64,000 bases of DNA, taken from assembly GCF_001983935.1 (NCBI RefSeq), contig NZ_CP017641.1:4898001-4962000 (forward strand), written 5' to 3'. The position numbers and the translations under genes were made by a program. Source of the stretch: Fuerstiella marisgermanici. Its GTDB lineage: Bacteria > Planctomycetota > Planctomycetia > Planctomycetales > Planctomycetaceae. The notes below the pieces were generated by a model. That model was not told the DNA's origin and did no database searches. It worked only from the letters and a program-made list of their open reading frames with translations. Of this stretch, positions 2,881 through 10,528 are shown one piece after another (within the stretch, counting starts at the first letter, position 1; each line of letters starts with the position of its first letter).

Positions 2881-3066
2881 TGCTCTGTTGAGAAACTGTC
2901 CTGCGATTGTTTAGCAAATGAAGTCGCCACGATTCTTCCACCGGAGGACGCAGAACCGCTTTGGCCAACTGTGTTCGGGTACTCCCAATCCGAAGCCGGA
3001 GCAACAATGGCGAGCAGCAACAAGGTGGCTGTGTACTTCATTAGAGACCTTCGTGTGTCGTTGCTG

Positions 3067-3150
3067 GCTAACGCTTAACATCACCGGACGCGGACCAGTT
3101 GATGTGATTTGCAAATTGCGGCACCGGCCGCGTTCCGGTGCATATTTTTG
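3067..3150 (+). repeat. attC-like or terminator-like imperfect palindrome
   Basis: CACCGGACGCGG at 3082-3093 pairs with CCGCGTTCCGGTG at 3128-3140, with one extra base in the right arm. The spacer is 34 bases. GCTAACGCTTAACAT precedes the left arm and ATATTTTTGG follows the right arm. The single extrahelical base and the AAC-containing outer arm recall integron attC sites. A smaller inner hairpin (GCACCGG/CCGGTGC, 3121-3141) followed by a T-run could instead be a plus-strand terminator. The outer group II intron starts 17 bases further on. Confidence 0.4.
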
Positions 3151-3639
3151 GTACGCCTGGCATGGCGTGTGTTTTATGGGGTGCAAGTCCCCTGTACGAG
3201 AATGGAGGTCTTGTGGATTAATGGTACATCCATTGAGCTGCTTGAATCAAGTACGAGACGAGGGCAACTGCGGGGAGGTAACGAACCGTGGGGAGGAAGC
3301 CTGCGAATGCGCCGTTAAGCTGACACTCAACAGTCGTCGTCAGTCGCATCTTCGTCAAAGCTGCGAGGTTACGAACAGAAATCGGATACAAGGCCGGTGC
3401 GGACAGGTGAGTGAGCCAATCATCACGAAACCGTCTCCGTTCATCCGCATTGGTAAATCCGGAGCTTGTGCAGCGAAAGTCACACGCCTTATCCAGGGAG
3501 ATCCGTCGTTCGTATCTGTTAGAAGAGCTTGCTCAAAGGCAGAGCGATTCGTGGTCAACACGTTTCGTGATCGACGGAAGTCAGCAGAGGTCGTAGTACT
3601 GTTTCGTCACACACCACTGACGACAGGAAGGACCGAACG

Positions 3640-5067
3640 ATGAATTCCAGGGAGGAGTCTTCGACCAACTCGACACGAGGTGGGTGGTCTGCTCGGCAGA
3701 CAAATCCAGTTCCCCGAACGGGGATGACCGCGTCGGCGTCGGACAAGCAGCCAGCCCTGAACGACCGTGGTTCCACGGTCGAACGTTTGTTTCCAGAGAT
3801 GATGATGGAAGCCGTCGTTGATGAATCCAACATGGAACGCGCCTGGCAGAAAGTCCGGTCGAACCGCGGAGCCCCTGGCCCCGACGGCATCACGCTGGAT
3901 GAATTTCTGACATGGTTCCGACCACGCTGGGAACTCATCCGACGACAGCTTCTCGACGGCACGTATCGACCTTCACCGGTGCGACGCGTGACCATCGACA
4001 AGCCGGATGGCGGCACACGGCAGCTCGGTATTCCGAACGTGCTGGACCGCGTGATTCAACAGGCCATCCTGCAGATTCTGACGCCCGTGTTCGATCCGCA
4101 CTTCAGCGATTCGAGCCACGGGTTTCGCCCCAACCGATCCGCTCACGGAGCCATGCAACAGGTTCAGCGGACGATCAAGGCAGGCGGCAAGTTCGTGGTG
4201 GATATGGACCTTTCAAAATTCTTTGATCGAGTCAACCACGACGTGCTGATGAACCGAATCGCTCTTCGCGTTTCGGATTCACTGCTGCTGAAACTGATCG
4301 GCCGTTACCTGCGAGCGGGCGTGATCGTGGACGGCGAACTGCAACCGAGTACCGAAGGAACGCCACAAGGTGGCCCGCTGTCTCCGCTACTTGCCAACAT
4401 CCTGCTGGATGATCTGGACAAGGAACTGGAACAACGCGGTCTGCCGTTCGTGCGTTACGCTGACGACTTCGTGATCTTCACGAAGTCTGAACGTGCCGCG
4501 CGTCGAGTGTTCCGATCGGTGCAGCGTTTTCTGACCGAACGTCTTCGTCTTGTTGTTAACGAAACGAAGAGCAAAGTGGTGCCGTGGCAGGAACTTGAGT
4601 TTCTTGGGTTCTGTGTTCGCGGTCGCTACTTTCGGATCAGGCTGAGTGACAAATCGCTTCAGCGTTTCAAGCGTCGCATTCGAGAACTCACCGGTCGCAG
4701 CTGGGGAGTTTCGATGGAACGTCGCTTGAGTGAACTGCGAAGTTATCTTCGCGGCTGGGCGGGTTACTTCTGCCTGGCGATGGAGTTGAAACTGTTCGAT
4801 AGGCTCGACCAGTGGATCCGTCGTCGGATACGCATGTGCTTCTGGAAGCGGTGGCGACACGCTCGCACACGCAGCCGAGAACTCGTGCGTTTAGGGGTTC
4901 CCCGTCGACAGGCGATTCGTCATGCGAAAAGTCGCAAGAGCTACTGGCACATGGCCAAGACCATCGCCAGCGGTGTGGGCTTTACGAACGCGCTGCTCGT
5001 GGAATTGGGTCTATTAAGCCTGAAACACCTCTGGAACGAACTGGCTCCACTTCGTCGAACCGCCTGA
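3640..5067 (+). CDS. ltrA: Group II intron reverse transcriptase/maturase (outer intron)
   Basis: 475 residues. AGGAAGG about 10 bases before the ATG supports the start. The RT palm shows the early block NRGAPGPDGITLDEF, a GIPNVLDRVIQQAI block, SHGFRPNRSAHGA, the priming motif TPQGGPLSPLLANILLD and the catalytic FVRYADDFVIF (about residues 275-285). A maturase (X) domain with the typical basic helices and SYLRGWAGYF follows. No HNH endonuclease motif is evident at the C-terminus. In such introns the protein binds its own RNA, assists splicing and copies it into DNA at the target. The frame is intact, but the cognate intron RNA is broken in domain V just after the stop codon, so this copy should no longer splice in cis; the protein could still act in trans. 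Confidence 0.92.
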   Translation: MNSREESSTNSTRGGWSARQTNPVPRTGMTASASDKQPALNDRGSTVERLFPEMMMEAVVDESNMERAWQKVRSNRGAPGPDGITLDEFLTWFRPRWELIRRQLLDGTYRPSPVRRVTIDKPDGGTRQLGIPNVLDRVIQQAILQILTPVFDPHFSDSSHGFRPNRSAHGAMQQVQRTIKAGGKFVVDMDLSKFFDRVNHDVLMNRIALRVSDSLLLKLIGRYLRAGVIVDGELQPSTEGTPQGGPLSPLLANILLDDLDKELEQRGLPFVRYADDFVIFTKSERAARRVFRSVQRFLTERLRLVVNETKSKVVPWQELEFLGFCVRGRYFRIRLSDKSLQRFKRRIRELTGRSWGVSMERRLSELRSYLRGWAGYFCLAMELKLFDRLDQWIRRRIRMCFWKRWRHARTRSRELVRLGVPRRQAIRHAKSRKSYWHMAKTIASGVGFTNALLVELGLLSLKHLWNELAPLRRTA

Positions 5068-5190
5068 TGGGCGAGTAGGATGGCGTCTTTCGGGTTTAGG
5101 ATGCGGTTTGTGTTCCCTGTTGGCCACCCGTTTCCTCTGGTGGTGTCACAATATTTTATCCGTGTCCGATTGTACGCTCAACCCCTCTCA

Positions 5191-5223
5191 GAACCGGACG
5201 TGCGCCGTTAACGCATCCGGCTC
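5191..5223 (-). ncRNA. Domain V of the inner group II intron
   Basis: 33-base hairpin on the minus strand: 5' arm GAGCCGGATGCG, short loop and 3' arm GCGCACGTCCGGTTC. The GAGC/GTTC ends and the two-part stem with a bulge match the catalytic domain V consensus of bacterial group II introns. It starts 26 bases after the maturase stop codon (5249). Confidence 0.85.
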
Positions 5224-5248
5224 CCGACCATCACTTGTCACCCGGTCA

Positions 5249-6745
5249 TCACTTTGGCTGTATCGCAATCAGGTCAGTCAGCTTCGAAGGAGATGCCAGG
5301 GGAAAGCGAGCTATGTACGCATCGAACTGAGGCCAGGTCTTTGACTTCCTCTGCGAACGACGATTGAGCCAGCGGAAGGCCAGCTGCTTTGCTGCCTGGC
5401 GGAATTTCATCAGTTGGGACCAATTGTCATTGATTCCATAGTACTGATAATGGCCACGCAGCTTCGCATTCAACTTCGCCCAGACTTCGGACAAAGGTGT
5501 CGTCAGATTCCGTCGGAACCAATGCTTCAGATCGCCTACCTTAGCTCGGTATTTCTTACTGGCTGTCTTCCGTTTCGGCTTGAACTTTCCCGCACGACTC
5601 AGGCCGCAGTAATGAGTGAAGCCGAGGAAGTCGAACGTCGCGGGAGCCCCTTCGCCAAGACGCTGGCAATCGCGTCTCGCAAAGCGGCCGAACCGCAGCA
5701 GTTTAGTCTTCTCTTCGGCCAGCTCCAGCGAGTATCGGGCCAGTCGCTTCGGTAGCACATCCTGAAAGCGTCTCGCGTCAGACTCCAGTTCGAACGCACA
5801 AATGAAGTCGTCCGCGAAGCGGACAATGTACGATTCACCTCGCATACGCGGCTGCACATCCCGGTCGAACCATTGGTCCAGGACGTAATGCAAATACACG
5901 TTCGCTAATAACGGTGAAAGAACCGAGCCTTGCGGAACACCTTCGTCAGTGTTACGGCGACGACCTTCGATCATCACACCGGACTTCAGAAAGCGCTGGA
6001 TCAGGGCCAATAGCTTCGGATCGGAAATCCGCTTTTGTAGCAGTTCGAGCAAACGTTCATGACAAACGTTATCGAAGAAGCCACGGATATCCGCGTCCGA
6101 AATCCAGCTCACTTTCCGGGTCGCGATGGTTTGACCGTGCACACTTAAAGCCTGGTGGCATGACCGTCCCGGACGGAAACCATAGGAAGTCTCACAGAAG
6201 TCGACTTCGTAGATCCGTTCCAGAATCATCACGACCGCACGTTGTACGATCTTGTCTTCCACACTGGCGATACCCAGCGGTCTGGTCTTGCCATTCCCTT
6301 TCGGAATGTCACGACGAAGACTGGGCTGAGGCCGATACGCACCACGGTGTAATCTGGTTAACAGGTCGTGCAGGTTGTCCCGCAGATTCGACTCGTATTG
6401 ATCCACCGTGACACCGTCGACTCCGGGTGCCTTGCCTCGCTTGAGCTTGCGAAACGCATACCACAGCAACTCGTAATTGAGCAGCGAAAAGAGGTTGTTA
6501 AACGCCTCTTCAGAGTACGTTTCCGCGCGTTGGGTGATGCGATCCAGTCGATCAAGCACCGGTGATCCGCCACTGAGTGCGGTCGGTGTATCGCTGGAGT
6601 CGCGTGATGGCCTGGCGGCCTTCCCTGCACCCGCATTACCGGGCTTCAATTCACGCGATTGGTCTTCGCGCTTCAACGGTACTATGCCGCCATCCGACTT
6701 CCCAGAGTCGTCTGCACTCCTTGCCTTTTCAGCTTGTACGTGCAT
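5249..6745 (-). CDS. ltrA: Group II intron reverse transcriptase/maturase (inner intron)
   Basis: 498 residues from the ATG at 6745. The frame is open further upstream (to 6934), but an N-terminus beginning MHVQAEKARSADD leaves more room for the intron RNA; ATGs at 6811 and 6820 remain possible and no strong ribosome site decides. RT motifs: KRGKAPGVDGVTVDQYE, RPLGIASVEDKIVQRAV, SYGFRPGRSCHQAL, VPQGSVLSPLLANVYLH and the catalytic block YIVRFADDFICAF, where F replaces the usual Y of YADD, a known variant. A maturase domain with LRGHYQYYGI and RWLNRRSQRKS follows. The frame is complete, so this intron may be mobile. It is co-directional with the protease gene upstream. Confidence 0.92.
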   Translation of the reverse strand: MHVQAEKARSADDSGKSDGGIVPLKREDQSRELKPGNAGAGKAARPSRDSSDTPTALSGGSPVLDRLDRITQRAETYSEEAFNNLFSLLNYELLWYAFRKLKRGKAPGVDGVTVDQYESNLRDNLHDLLTRLHRGAYRPQPSLRRDIPKGNGKTRPLGIASVEDKIVQRAVVMILERIYEVDFCETSYGFRPGRSCHQALSVHGQTIATRKVSWISDADIRGFFDNVCHERLLELLQKRISDPKLLALIQRFLKSGVMIEGRRRNTDEGVPQGSVLSPLLANVYLHYVLDQWFDRDVQPRMRGESYIVRFADDFICAFELESDARRFQDVLPKRLARYSLELAEEKTKLLRFGRFARRDCQRLGEGAPATFDFLGFTHYCGLSRAGKFKPKRKTASKKYRAKVGDLKHWFRRNLTTPLSEVWAKLNAKLRGHYQYYGINDNWSQLMKFRQAAKQLAFRWLNRRSQRKSKTWPQFDAYIARFPLASPSKLTDLIAIQPK

Positions 6746-7196
6746 ACTCGTTTCGTCGTGATTGGACGTCACGTCGAACAAGAACAGCTGGGATCTCACT
6801 GGTTGCTTCATTGGCATCATGTGTAGCGCGATCGTGGCCTTCGACCCCGGGTCTCCGAGCTTCGCTCGCCAAAACGCGAAACTCAGTGTTGCCTTTAGCA
6901 GGTCCGAATGCCTGGGCAGATACCGAGAAAACATGCATTTCGGGGCTCAATACCATTCACGGTTTGGGCGGCCAGCCCAGTCCATTCGTCCTCACTACCT
7001 TTCTGTGTACGCTTCAACGCAACTGTTACCAGTGACGCTGCAACACTCGATACCGGGCCTCAGGCTAAGAGTTACCCGGACGGGATTCGCACCCGCTTGT
7101 CAATAAACCATTTCCAGTTCGCTCCGGACCCGCATGTCAGGTGGTGTGGGGAGGGTCACCGGAAACGGTGGCTCTTACCCGATTTAGCTGGCCGCT

Positions 7197-8246
7197 TCAA
7201 CGTTGACGCCAGAGATTCATTGCTGGCCGCAACTCAGGGTACGCCTCATGAATGAGAGTGCTGACCGCGACCCACCGCGACGCCTTGATTGCATTGCGAG
7301 AAGGATACACGGACGTTTCCACGCCGACAATTCTTGATTTCTCGACTGCCCAATCTTCAATCGACGTTTGAAGGTCACCGATTCGCCAGACGCTGCAACC
7401 ACTGATGCCGCCGAGATCACGGGGGAATTGTGCCGCATCGCCGTTGAGTTTCGTGTAGTTCACCGGTTGGCCATCAGGATCAGTAATGTCGTGCGACGAT
7501 CCGCTAAGCAATATGTGAAGTTCGTCCTGGTAGTTGCCAAGACCGTCAGTCACACCGTCAAATCGGTATGTGGTGAATTGAAGTGGCTTGAGTTGAACGC
7601 TTGTGTTGGTGTCCGTGGAAGTTGACGCCCAGATTGCCGGGTAACCAAACAGTGTGTACACAGCGGTGTCTGGCTGATCGTCAAATTCGATGTCATCAAC
7701 GCGCAAGAACGTTTTTCCGTCGAGTCGTTCGACCGAATCCTGAGGCAGGTGATAGATTGCAACATCGAGCGGATCATCAATGCTGCCGTATTGCCCCGCA
7801 GAGGTAACGGTCCAGTCATTCACGACTGGGATAAACTTCGACCGGCCAGACGATATCCCAAGCGAGCAGCTATGCTTTACGGCATCCTTGATCACATGGG
7901 CGGCCGTTACGACGAAAAAATGGTCAGCTATCGCGAACAACGTGCCAGTGCCAAATTGGAACACGGATTGATCGCGACCAGCAACGATGGCAACTGTGCA
8001 GTCCCAGGCGTGTTCGGGAATCTGCGGTAAAACGCGGGAGTTGATTGAACGCTGTAGCTCGGATTTGTCCATCGCGTTTATCTTGCCAGCTAACGCCTGC
8101 CGTAACCGGGCACGAACGGAAGGCTTTGATTTCAGTTGCCGCGTGAATGAGTGCTCCGGTTCACGGCTTTGTTCAAGTGAGCCGCTGCGCGGCGGGGTAT
8201 TTTCTAATGGAGTCTGATTTGCGAATGTAGTGAAATCTTGTGCCAT
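7197..8246 (-). CDS. Trypsin-like serine protease (HtrA/S1 fold)
   Basis: 349 residues. The catalytic triad is visible: His in FVVTAAHVI, Asp in DDPLDVAIYHL and Ser in GGISGCSVWRIG (G-x-S-G, followed by C rather than P). The first 60 residues are polar and proline-rich, without a signal peptide or membrane segment, so a cytoplasmic location is likely. No PDZ domain is present, which separates it from classical HtrA/DegP. It resembles stand-alone trypsin-like peptidases found in variable genomic regions; the target is unknown. The stop lies 13 bases from the outer intron. Its start is 41 bp from the recombinase start of the IS91-type unit, so the element may have displaced its native promoter. 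The ribosome site before 8246 is weak. Confidence 0.75.
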   Translation of the reverse strand: MAQDFTTFANQTPLENTPPRSGSLEQSREPEHSFTRQLKSKPSVRARLRQALAGKINAMDKSELQRSINSRVLPQIPEHAWDCTVAIVAGRDQSVFQFGTGTLFAIADHFFVVTAAHVIKDAVKHSCSLGISSGRSKFIPVVNDWTVTSAGQYGSIDDPLDVAIYHLPQDSVERLDGKTFLRVDDIEFDDQPDTAVYTLFGYPAIWASTSTDTNTSVQLKPLQFTTYRFDGVTDGLGNYQDELHILLSGSSHDITDPDGQPVNYTKLNGDAAQFPRDLGGISGCSVWRIGDLQTSIEDWAVEKSRIVGVETSVYPSRNAIKASRWVAVSTLIHEAYPELRPAMNLWRQR

Positions 8247-8287
8247 GTCTTTCTGATTGTTTCTTTCACTTTCAGGGAGACCATTTC

Positions 8288-9310
8288 ATGTCACACGATC
8301 ATTCTTCACAGAACGGGAACAACAGCAACTCGGACGAACAACGCAGTAACAACCAACCCACGAAGTCGCTCCGCGAACGGATGTCGCAGGATCTGCAGTT
8401 GCGGGGTATGGCGCAACGGACTCATGATGGCTACCTTCGCGAAGTTCGCAAGCTGGCCGGTCATTACCACACGCCGCCGGATCAGCTTTCCGAACAACAG
8501 GTCGCCGACTATCTGTTGTACCTGATCAACGACTGCGAGTTCGCTCCGGGTTCGCTGCGAGTCGCTTACAGTGGGCTCAAATTCTTCTACAAGTACACCG
8601 AACCGCGTGACTGGAAAGTGCTCACGAAGCTGCGTATTCCGAAACAGAAAACGCTGCCGGATGTGCTGTCCATCGACGAAGTTCACCGACTGATCGCCGC
8701 CGTGCGGCAGCCGCGCAATCGAGCCTACTTCTGGGCCACCTATACGCTCGGCCTGCGGATGAGCGAAGCGCTGAGTCTGCAGATCGGCGACATCGATGCC
8801 GAACGCATGCTGGTGCATGTGCATCGTGGCAAGGGCGCGAAGGATCGCTTCGTGACGTTGCCGCATTCGACGCTGCATGTGCTGCGCAGTTACTGGAAGA
8901 CGCATCGCAATCCAACGCTGCTGTTTCCGCAGATCGGACGCACGAAGAAAGAGGGCCCGACGACGTCGCGGCCGATGGATCCGTCGACCGTGCAAGGCTG
9001 CATCAAGGATGTGGTCAGCGAGCTCGGCTTCACCAAGCAGGTTTCGATCCACACGCTGCGGCACAGCATCGCCACGCATCTGTTTGAGGCCGGCGTGTCG
9101 CTGCGCTGGATTCAGAAGTTCCTTGGCCATAAGAACCTGCAGACGACGCTGGTCTACCTGCATCTGACGGATCCGAAGGAAGAAGACGGTCGCAAGACTC
9201 ACGACGATATCGCCGACGCGGGAACATTGTTCGACAACATGTTTCCGCCGCCCGGCGAACCACCTATCGGTCCTGACAACGATCCGCACCGAAATCGCAA
9301 GCCGCGATAG
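8288..9310 (+). CDS. Tyrosine recombinase (phage-integrase family) of the IS91-type unit
   Basis: 340 residues from the ATG at 8288, chosen because AGGGAGA sits 7-8 bases upstream; the in-frame ATG at 8240 lacks a ribosome site. Residues 35-125 form a SAM-like core-binding domain (MAQRTHDGYLREVRKLAGHY). The catalytic domain shows Arg in TLGLRMSEALSL, Lys in GKGAKDRFVTLP, the HTLRHSIATHL (H-x-x-R) box, LGHKNLQTTLVYLHL with the nucleophilic Tyr, and a short acidic/polar tail. All catalytic residues are present. The stop codon abuts the transposase ATG (TAGATG), implying translational coupling. Tyrosine recombinases next to IS91-family transposases occur elsewhere and are thought to act in the same transposon; their precise role is not settled. 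Confidence 0.9.
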   Translation: MSHDHSSQNGNNSNSDEQRSNNQPTKSLRERMSQDLQLRGMAQRTHDGYLREVRKLAGHYHTPPDQLSEQQVADYLLYLINDCEFAPGSLRVAYSGLKFFYKYTEPRDWKVLTKLRIPKQKTLPDVLSIDEVHRLIAAVRQPRNRAYFWATYTLGLRMSEALSLQIGDIDAERMLVHVHRGKGAKDRFVTLPHSTLHVLRSYWKTHRNPTLLFPQIGRTKKEGPTTSRPMDPSTVQGCIKDVVSELGFTKQVSIHTLRHSIATHLFEAGVSLRWIQKFLGHKNLQTTLVYLHLTDPKEEDGRKTHDDIADAGTLFDNMFPPPGEPPIGPDNDPHRNRKPR

Positions 9311-10528
9311 ATGCCGACCGTTGCCGACGTATTGCGGCAGCACGGGGACGACTATCTGAAACAGTTCGGCGAACGCATGCCGTTGCAGCACAAGCGCGTG
9401 CTGAGTTTCATATCAAAGTGTCGCACCGGAGAACTGGGCCATCTGCGATACGACTGCGGCGACTGCCAGCGAACTCACTGGGTGGGACGCAGTTGCAACA
9501 ACCGACACTGCCCGAACTGCCAGTCTGACAAGACGCAGAAGTGGCTCGCCGATCGTCTGTCCGAATTGCTGCCGGTGCCCTACTTTATGGTCACCTTCAC
9601 AGTGCCCGAAGCGCTGCGGAAGGTCGTGCGCGCTCACCAGGACGTGTGCTATCGAGCGTTGTTCGACTGTGGCAGTCAGACGATTCACGAACTGGCGTCT
9701 GGAAAGCGGTTCGTTGGCACGAAGCGGATGGGCTTCTTCGGAGTTCTGCACACGTGGGGGCGAGACTTCACGGTCTACAATCCGCACGTGCATTTCGTGG
9801 TGCCCGGCGGTGGTGTTTCGGAAGATGGTTCGCAGGAGCCAACGGCCACGCCTCGGCGCATGAAACGCACCAGGTCAAGCGGCTCGCCACGCCATGGTCC
9901 GCCGGGACCGCCCGGCTGGCAGCAGTGTCCGCCGAATTTTCTGCTGCCGGAGAAGGCCGCGTCCACAGTCTTCCCCGCGAAGTTTCGCGATGCGGTTCGA
10001 GCGGCGGGGATTGAGGACGAATTTCTGGCCGCTGATCCGCGTGCGTGGACTCGGCCGTGGGTGATGGATGTCGAAGCGGTGGGCGACGGACGCGGCGTGC
10101 TGAAGTATCTGGCTCCGTACGTTTACCGTGTGGCGATCAGTAACAACCGCATCGAGTCGATGAATGAGACTCACGTGACCTATCGCTACACGCCGTCGGG
10201 GAAGAAGTTTTCGAAGCGTCGCAAAGTTTCGGGGCAGGAGTTTGTGAGAGGCTTTTTGCAGCACGTGTTGCCGCCGAACTTTCACAGAATCCGCTACTAC
10301 GGTTTTTTGCACTCACACAGTTCGCTGAGTATCGACTATGTGCGGATGCTGGCGTGTTTCTACCTGGGCATGTGTTACATCCTGGCGAAGCGAGCCGTTG
10401 CGGAAGAACCACCGAAGCGGCCGATGGTGTGTCGTGAATGCGGCGGTGACCTGCATCTGGTGATGATCACCGATCACGTCGGCCGAGTCCTGTACGAACA
10501 CCCGCTGCCGTATCTCGATTCCGGATGA
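9311..10528 (+). CDS. IS91-family transposase
   Basis: 405 residues, starting directly at the recombinase stop. The N-terminal zinc-binding domain has CGDC and CNNRHCPNCQ (about residues 50-75). The HUH-type nickase core includes YNPHVHFVVPGGG (His-x-His) and the YLAPYVYRVAISNNRI region that normally carries the catalytic tyrosine. A C-terminal CRECGGDL pair suggests a second zinc site. Between VSEDGSQ and WQQCPPNF lies an in-frame insertion of about 27 residues rich in Pro, Arg and Gly that breaks a normally compact segment; it may be natural in this subfamily or reflect damage. Otherwise the protein is full length for the family. Confidence 0.9.
   Translation: MPTVADVLRQHGDDYLKQFGERMPLQHKRVLSFISKCRTGELGHLRYDCGDCQRTHWVGRSCNNRHCPNCQSDKTQKWLADRLSELLPVPYFMVTFTVPEALRKVVRAHQDVCYRALFDCGSQTIHELASGKRFVGTKRMGFFGVLHTWGRDFTVYNPHVHFVVPGGGVSEDGSQEPTATPRRMKRTRSSGSPRHGPPGPPGWQQCPPNFLLPEKAASTVFPAKFRDAVRAAGIEDEFLAADPRAWTRPWVMDVEAVGDGRGVLKYLAPYVYRVAISNNRIESMNETHVTYRYTPSGKKFSKRRKVSGQEFVRGFLQHVLPPNFHRIRYYGFLHSHSSLSIDYVRMLACFYLGMCYILAKRAVAEEPPKRPMVCRECGGDLHLVMITDHVGRVLYEHPLPYLDSG

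Follow-up and report, generated by a model that had tools for sequence, protein, structure and literature searches.

An antisense group II intron found repeatedly at one position in domain V of IIC-type introns in Fuerstiella marisgermanici

We analyzed a 64,000-nucleotide stretch of the genome of the planctomycete Fuerstiella marisgermanici (the window; contig NZ_CP017641.1, here C1, positions C1:4898001-4962000), in which domain V (DV) of a plus-strand, IIC-type group II intron, the outer intron, is split by a second group II intron on the minus strand, the inner intron, at 5070-7124. The inner intron is very probably a mobile element whose guides match the antisense strand of DV in a family of IIC-type introns resident at attC-like sites, and whose lineage most likely derives from attC-targeting introns. 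An earlier note on this DNA had described the antisense nesting within the outer DV, and this is borne out by six copies that always have DV flanks. It missed that the insertion, judged from the sequences, is a repeated and guide-matched one rather than a lone accident.

Six identical copies of the inner intron lie in diverged hosts

A search of the own genome, in which all 22 first-look candidates were scored, recovered the 2055-bp inner intron six times at 100% identity (C1 1186401, 1862495, 2022563, 2044605, 2171905, and 4903070). All six are antisense at one DV position. They are bordered by GCGGGTCCG (5') and CAYCAGGCGGTTC (3'), which correspond to the antisense strand of an outer-type DV. 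This recurrence and the comparison with intact DVs confirm the ends at 5070 and 7124 that the note had proposed.

Joining 5069 to 7125 yields the DV GAACCGCCTGATGCGGACCCGCATGTCAGGTGGTGTGGGGAGGG, which exists uninterrupted and identical to the letter in G805 (four DVs: L200, L201, and two in L202) and in G571 (L214); it is nearly identical in G494 and carries few changes in the empty copies of the own genome. Because moving the boundary by one base either way spoils the match to these intact DVs, the junctions are exact to the base. The joined DV and domain VI (DVI) of the window fold with a z score of -4.8, compared with -5.0, -4.3, and -3.6 for intact own-genome copies, so that removal of the insert gives the uninterrupted, consensus-like domains that had been predicted. 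Intact outer relatives lack the 5070-7124 DNA; this rules out that it is an ordinary domain IV of the outer intron, the finding that the note had named as contrary to its proposal.

Three of the hosts are full-length outer introns the same as that of the window, and in them the entire 4033-bp composite of outer and inner intron is identical. The host at 2171905 is an outer intron without an open reading frame (ORF), with matching pieces that are 78-86% identical, and those at 2022563 (98%) and 1186401 (91%) are 5'-truncated. Since the guest is identical and the hosts differ up to the junction, the inner intron entered at least the diverged hosts after their divergence. Bases peculiar to individual hosts are 2-5 nt away from the junctions (GGTG for GATG in two hosts and CGATAGG for TGTCAGG in one). 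Because they sit within a few nt of the insert, they argue for precise entry and led us to reject gene conversion among outer copies. A single insertion that then spread by homologous recombination or gene conversion would fit the similarity of the outer copies on both sides of the insert, but the tracts would need to end 2-5 nt from the junctions on both sides, and the guide match and the shared junction in another species at 80% intron identity would be coincidental; we consider this history highly improbable.

The composite might instead move as a unit, with the insert held in the apical DV stem, DV still forming, and the outer ribozyme working. We allow this a small chance because three whole composites are identical in different flanking contexts. 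In the joined fold, the base of the DV stem and its bulge are, moreover, retained on both sides of the insert, and every full-length outer copy found in the own genome is interrupted. Efficient homing into each matching DV predicts equal saturation, however, and movement as a unit neither accounts for the three hosts that are unlike the outer intron of the window yet carry an identical insert nor sits well with the loss of two pairs from the apical DV helix.

Occupancy of the outer DVs follows the IBS1 match

The exon-binding sites (EBS1 and EBS2) of the inner intron pair with the intron-binding sites (IBS1 and IBS2) in the antisense strand of DV at 14/14 positions, two of them G-U, at five occupied sites, and at 12 or 13 positions at the sixth. 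The perfect 14-nt target occurs at five sites in the own genome, and all five are filled. Among the 11 outer-family DVs found, the six filled ones all have the full IBS1 and the five empty ones all have an IBS1 mismatch: GGGACCG at 841752, 7141593, and 7142889, GGGTCGG at 2025578, and AAGTCCG at 2353647 (L203). Occupancy thus depends on the IBS1 match (Fisher's exact p 0.002 over the 11 DVs, which are related copies and so not independent).

These data leave next to no room for landing in repeats without specificity, in which DV would have been hit by chance or would remain after insertions in host genes were purged. Purging can delete copies elsewhere, and full-IBS1 sites beyond DV do exist and are empty, but 6/6 copies share the same base and the same orientation, the guide complementarity extends over 14 nt, and the same target recurs in nine genomes.

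DV junctions occur in at least nine genomes of two families

The earlier note had expected related introns to offer further targets, and this proved correct both in the own genome and in eight more. A search for 5' junctions found DV junctions in at least 2 of 170 genomes of the order (G000, G631), at least 7 of 241 genomes of a second family (G840, G970, G718, G948, G813, G949, G836), and at least 3 of 397 genomes of a class sample (G000, G718, G631). These sets overlap, and scoring covered 2-4 candidates in each genome; the genome counts are therefore lower bounds, and the total is at least nine genomes in two families, including the own. IBS1 at these junctions is GGGTCCG in 8/9 genomes and GGGGCCG in G949.

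A whole or near-whole inner intron is present in two of the nine. That in G840 (a contig of MAG KLAP214; L074/L191) is near-complete, with 80% identity over 2028 nt and both DV junctions, and the same genome holds an additional, decayed DV-junction copy with IBS1 GGGTCCA. In the seven other genomes, the 5' ends give way to unrelated DNA or stop at the end of a contig.

Guides and targets changed together among the relatives

We collected 68 distinct 5' junctions, 10 in DV and 58 elsewhere; the targets of the distant relatives L093-L113 lay outside the target analysis. AACNA is present in the 13-nt window upstream of IBS1 at 45 of the 58 non-DV junctions (chance ~2.6%) and absent at 12, the remaining exon being 6 nt only. 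Such sites resemble integron attC (AAC...hairpin...GTT).

EBS1 was readable in 33 of the 68 junction rows (3 DV and 30 non-DV), 29 of the non-DV rows having sufficient exon. In these 29, EBS1 forms 6/6 pairs with its own target in 19 rows, 5/6 in 6, 4/6 in 3, and 2/6 in 1. With the same targets, the DV-type EBS1 forms 0-2 of 6 pairs, and the 30 non-DV EBS1 loops form 1-3 of 6 with the DV target. EBS2 matches in 3/3 DV rows (one of them over 5 nt only). Because EBS1 loops pair with their own targets and poorly with those of the other type, guide and target changed together. The first bases differ as well: introns in DV begin GAGCG at 9/10 junctions (GACCG in the decayed one), and attC-type introns begin GTGCG at 41/45.

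In a FastTree phylogeny of 29 proteins (of 43 offered, eight were dropped for covering <250 residues and six had no match), the inner protein and that of L074 are sisters (0.957), beside L087 and L075/L165 (0.817), among close relatives whose visible flanks are attC-like. As this places the DV pair inside attC-type relatives, the direction from attC to DV is favored. A tree of 5' ends included 61 of the 68 junctions (five <120 nt, one duplicate, and one name collision were left out). The five DV copies richest in sequence cluster in it and the fragments L194, L195, and L198, in which unrelated DNA follows after ~40-50 nt, fall outside; a single clade of all DV copies was not recovered in this tree.

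Two groups of relatives were seen in passing. Planctomycetes bacterium CA13 holds six copies of one attC-type relative (L077-L080, L083, L084) at different attC-like sites, which would serve well as controls for target range. A subfamily that begins GAGTA has targets like ACAACATGGTNTTTACG (L049, L067, L071, L144, L147, L153, L156, and L159, in G004, G005, and G791); the EBS loops of L049 match its own target.

Architecture of the inner and outer introns

The note's description of a complete minus-strand intron with a maturase and a DV is supported by Rfam (RF02005 and RF00029) and Pfam (RVT_1, 5.9e-40; GIIM, 6.9e-6), which identify a reverse transcriptase (RT) with maturase domain X; no endonuclease family matched the protein in Pfam. 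The first ATG lies within the ribozyme, making the true start of the ORF uncertain. Matches to LtrA and to GsI-IIC in PDB are about equal, and the class was therefore left unassigned. The RF00029 match reaches 42.6 bits (gathering 40) with a long insert ahead of the 3' strand of DVI. We set aside a 3' extension of the kind seen in Bacillus cereus introns, as the match runs to the last base as DVI with its long insert. All named relatives of the protein are planctomycetal (18 loci).

The outer protein matches Pfam RVT_1 (5.4e-41) and GIIM (1.6e-20). Its best PDB match is the GsI-IIC RT (1.1e-134), well above LtrA (2.4e-46), and it is called IIC-type from this match. Covariance models, which the note had recommended, detected two plus-strand pieces of the outer intron (D1D4-3 at 3356-3479 and D1D4-1 at 3543-3633) besides the inner domains I-IV and DV/DVI, but the outer DV was not among the Rfam matches. 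The outer intron had been thought to begin at 3167; its start is instead at 3151, because GTACGCCTGGCATGGC is common to nine outer 5' ends and the second intron of a tandem in L214 starts GTACGCCC right after CCCGAT. The nine ends vary little from GTACGCC(T)GGCATGGC, and the sequences upstream are divergent. The tandem, near 1490 on the minus strand of L214, consists of two outer-type introns with zero spacer. Across sites of the outer family, pairs resembling R''/R' have 0-1 mismatch at 2/5 and two mismatches at 3/5, with a fold z score below -2 at 1/5.

Table 1. Features of the two introns and their surroundings (window coordinates unless C1 is given)
Feature	Position	Strand	Details
Inner group II intron	5070..7124	minus	2055 nt, GAGCG...CTACTCGCC; ends from six identical copies and intact DVs
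Inner RT/maturase ORF	5249..6934	minus	561 aa from first ATG; FADD
Inner domains I-IV core	6835..7089	minus	Rfam RF02005, 138.1 bits, model 1-225 of 225
Inner DV	5191..5223	minus	within Rfam RF00029 match 5070-5225
Inner EBS1, CGGACCU	6900..6906	minus	7/7 pairs with IBS1, one G-U; loop before GGCAACAC by Rfam D1-D4 alignment
Inner EBS2, GCAUGUU	6930..6936	minus	7/7 pairs with IBS2, one G-U; ~30 nt upstream of EBS1
IBS1, GGGTCCG	7125..7131	minus	last seven 5' exon bases, antisense strand of outer DV
IBS2, GACATGC	7132..7138	minus	seven bases preceding IBS1, antisense strand of outer DV
Outer intron, 5' part (domains I-IV and 5' strand of DV)	3151..5069	plus	nine 5' ends with GTACGCCTGGCATGGC; Rfam matches
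Outer intron, remainder (rest of DV and DVI)	7125..7183	plus	joined DV equals intact relatives; fold z -4.8
Outer RT/maturase	3640..5067	plus	475 aa; YADD
attC-like stretch before outer intron	3066..3150	plus	GGCTAAC...G, resumes as TTAGCT at 7184; R''/R'-like pair, one mismatch; fold z -1.5
Outer-family DVs, own genome	C1 841752, 1186401, 1862495, 2022563, 2025578, 2044605, 2171905, 4903070, 7141593, 7142889	plus	
Outer-family DV, own genome	C1 2353647	minus	

The outer-family DVs of the own genome lie on one strand of the 8.9-Mb chromosome in 10 of 11 cases, which replication or attC orientation may explain. Fragments of ~143 nt from the outer 5' end (L026 5026-5171; L031 3779-3920 and 4849-4990) adjoin a repeat containing the motifs GGGTGGCCCG and GGCACCCAGCCG, as do DV or 5'-truncated outer pieces (L026 near 13566; L028 upstream of 5219). 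These pieces are perhaps ORF-less derivatives of the outer intron or a second mobile element. Elsewhere in the window, the plus-strand ORF at 8240-9310 is, by eye, presumably a tyrosine recombinase, and the adjoining one at 9311-10528 (plus strand) is what we take to be an IS91-type transposase.

Proposed mechanism and significance

The most likely course of events is retrohoming. The inner ribonucleoprotein, guided by EBS1 and EBS2, would reverse-splice into the antisense strand of the outer DV DNA, and the inner RT would copy the inserted intron. Priming at the replication fork is likely because no endonuclease family matched in the inner protein; such priming has been described for introns without an endonuclease (PMC4424553). 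Each insertion would leave the outer DV as two strands 2 kb apart with the inner intron antisense between them. The inner intron could then be spliced from minus-strand transcripts only, sense transcripts of the outer intron would keep it, and the outer ribozyme is likely dead. Targeting of DV would have arisen in an attC-targeting ancestor through a change of both EBS1 and EBS2.

Several observations weigh against this reading. The occupied sixth DV (2173960) has the full IBS1 but a weaker IBS2, and two sites outside the outer DVs found are empty, 7630004 with the full IBS1 and one IBS2 mismatch and 382025 with the full IBS1. Because these two are empty, a factor beyond EBS1 and EBS2 must count; the 3' exon, the structure of the DNA, and selection are candidates. 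EBS2 pairing was seen in only 15/30 non-DV rows despite a permissive sliding register. The inner ends, GAGCG...CC, deviate from GUGYG...AY, a usual rather than a strict feature. Beyond the own genome, the DV junctions are mostly 5' fragments without the remaining intron. Finally, the attC assignment is motif-based, and 5/16 joined sites folded below z -2; owing to this mixed folding support, we term the sites attC-like.

If the reading holds, the system records in nature how a group II intron came to change its target, and the guide loops can be read together with both the old and the new targets. The target to which it moved is the catalytic core of an intron of another class, a sequence which could hardly change without death of the ribozyme and whose loss would be cheap for the host. 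We tentatively suggest, as an idea with somewhat less than even prospects, that this is a hyperparasitic lineage: attC introns re-guided to the DV of IIC introns in the same attC sites would disable a rival ribozyme with each insertion, and the outer family would reply with escape variants, the GTCC loop for example, limited to the few positions that DV catalysis spares. Questions that are mostly a matter of argument would become testable: by what route introns acquire new targets, whether a mobile intron can prey on other introns, and whether DV escapes by loop changes.

Relation to known nested introns

The term twintron, which the earlier note had brought in, fits insofar as one intron is nested in another. 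In its strict sense it is inapplicable, because all six copies are on the minus strand and splicing of the outer transcript cannot remove an antisense inner intron. The group II twintron of Trichodesmium, a bacterial intron within an intron, reportedly undergoes sequential splicing, which would be impossible for the antisense insert described here.

A parallel is found in Thermosynechococcus elongatus, where, as described by Mohr et al. (PMC2882425), F3 introns lie within F1 introns at a conserved site in the other family. As here, the inner introns are identical, the outer copies have diverged, and the EBS/IBS match is good. Those inner introns are ORF-less, in sense orientation, and flanked by a start codon of the outer ORF on either side, and one intron-encoded protein can splice and mobilize both introns. 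Ours, in contrast, has its own intron-encoded protein, is antisense, and splits the catalytic DV of another intron class. Nested intron homing with arrays of up to five introns is known from Methanosarcina acetivorans (PMC4424553), and the passage on it mentions neither a DV target nor antisense orientation.

With its IIC-type protein and its apparent position next to a putative attC-like hairpin, the outer family resembles the group IIC-attC introns (PMC7923331 and PMC4424553), whose published site is TTGT/T compared with the outer junction G/TT here. Integrons also contain group IIB introns, UHB.I2 and H.ha.F1/F2, as non-IIC introns at attC sites, with unusual ends UUGCG...GU in one case (PMC7923331). 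These lie at or after attC, whereas the lineage described here would have left attC for the DV of an attC-resident intron. In the open-licence literature, covered in part and mostly at the level of listings, we found no report of antisense targeting of DV. Compared with known nested homing, the choice of DV as the target, the antisense orientation, the crossing into another intron class, and a guide switch that can be traced are new in the literature that we read.

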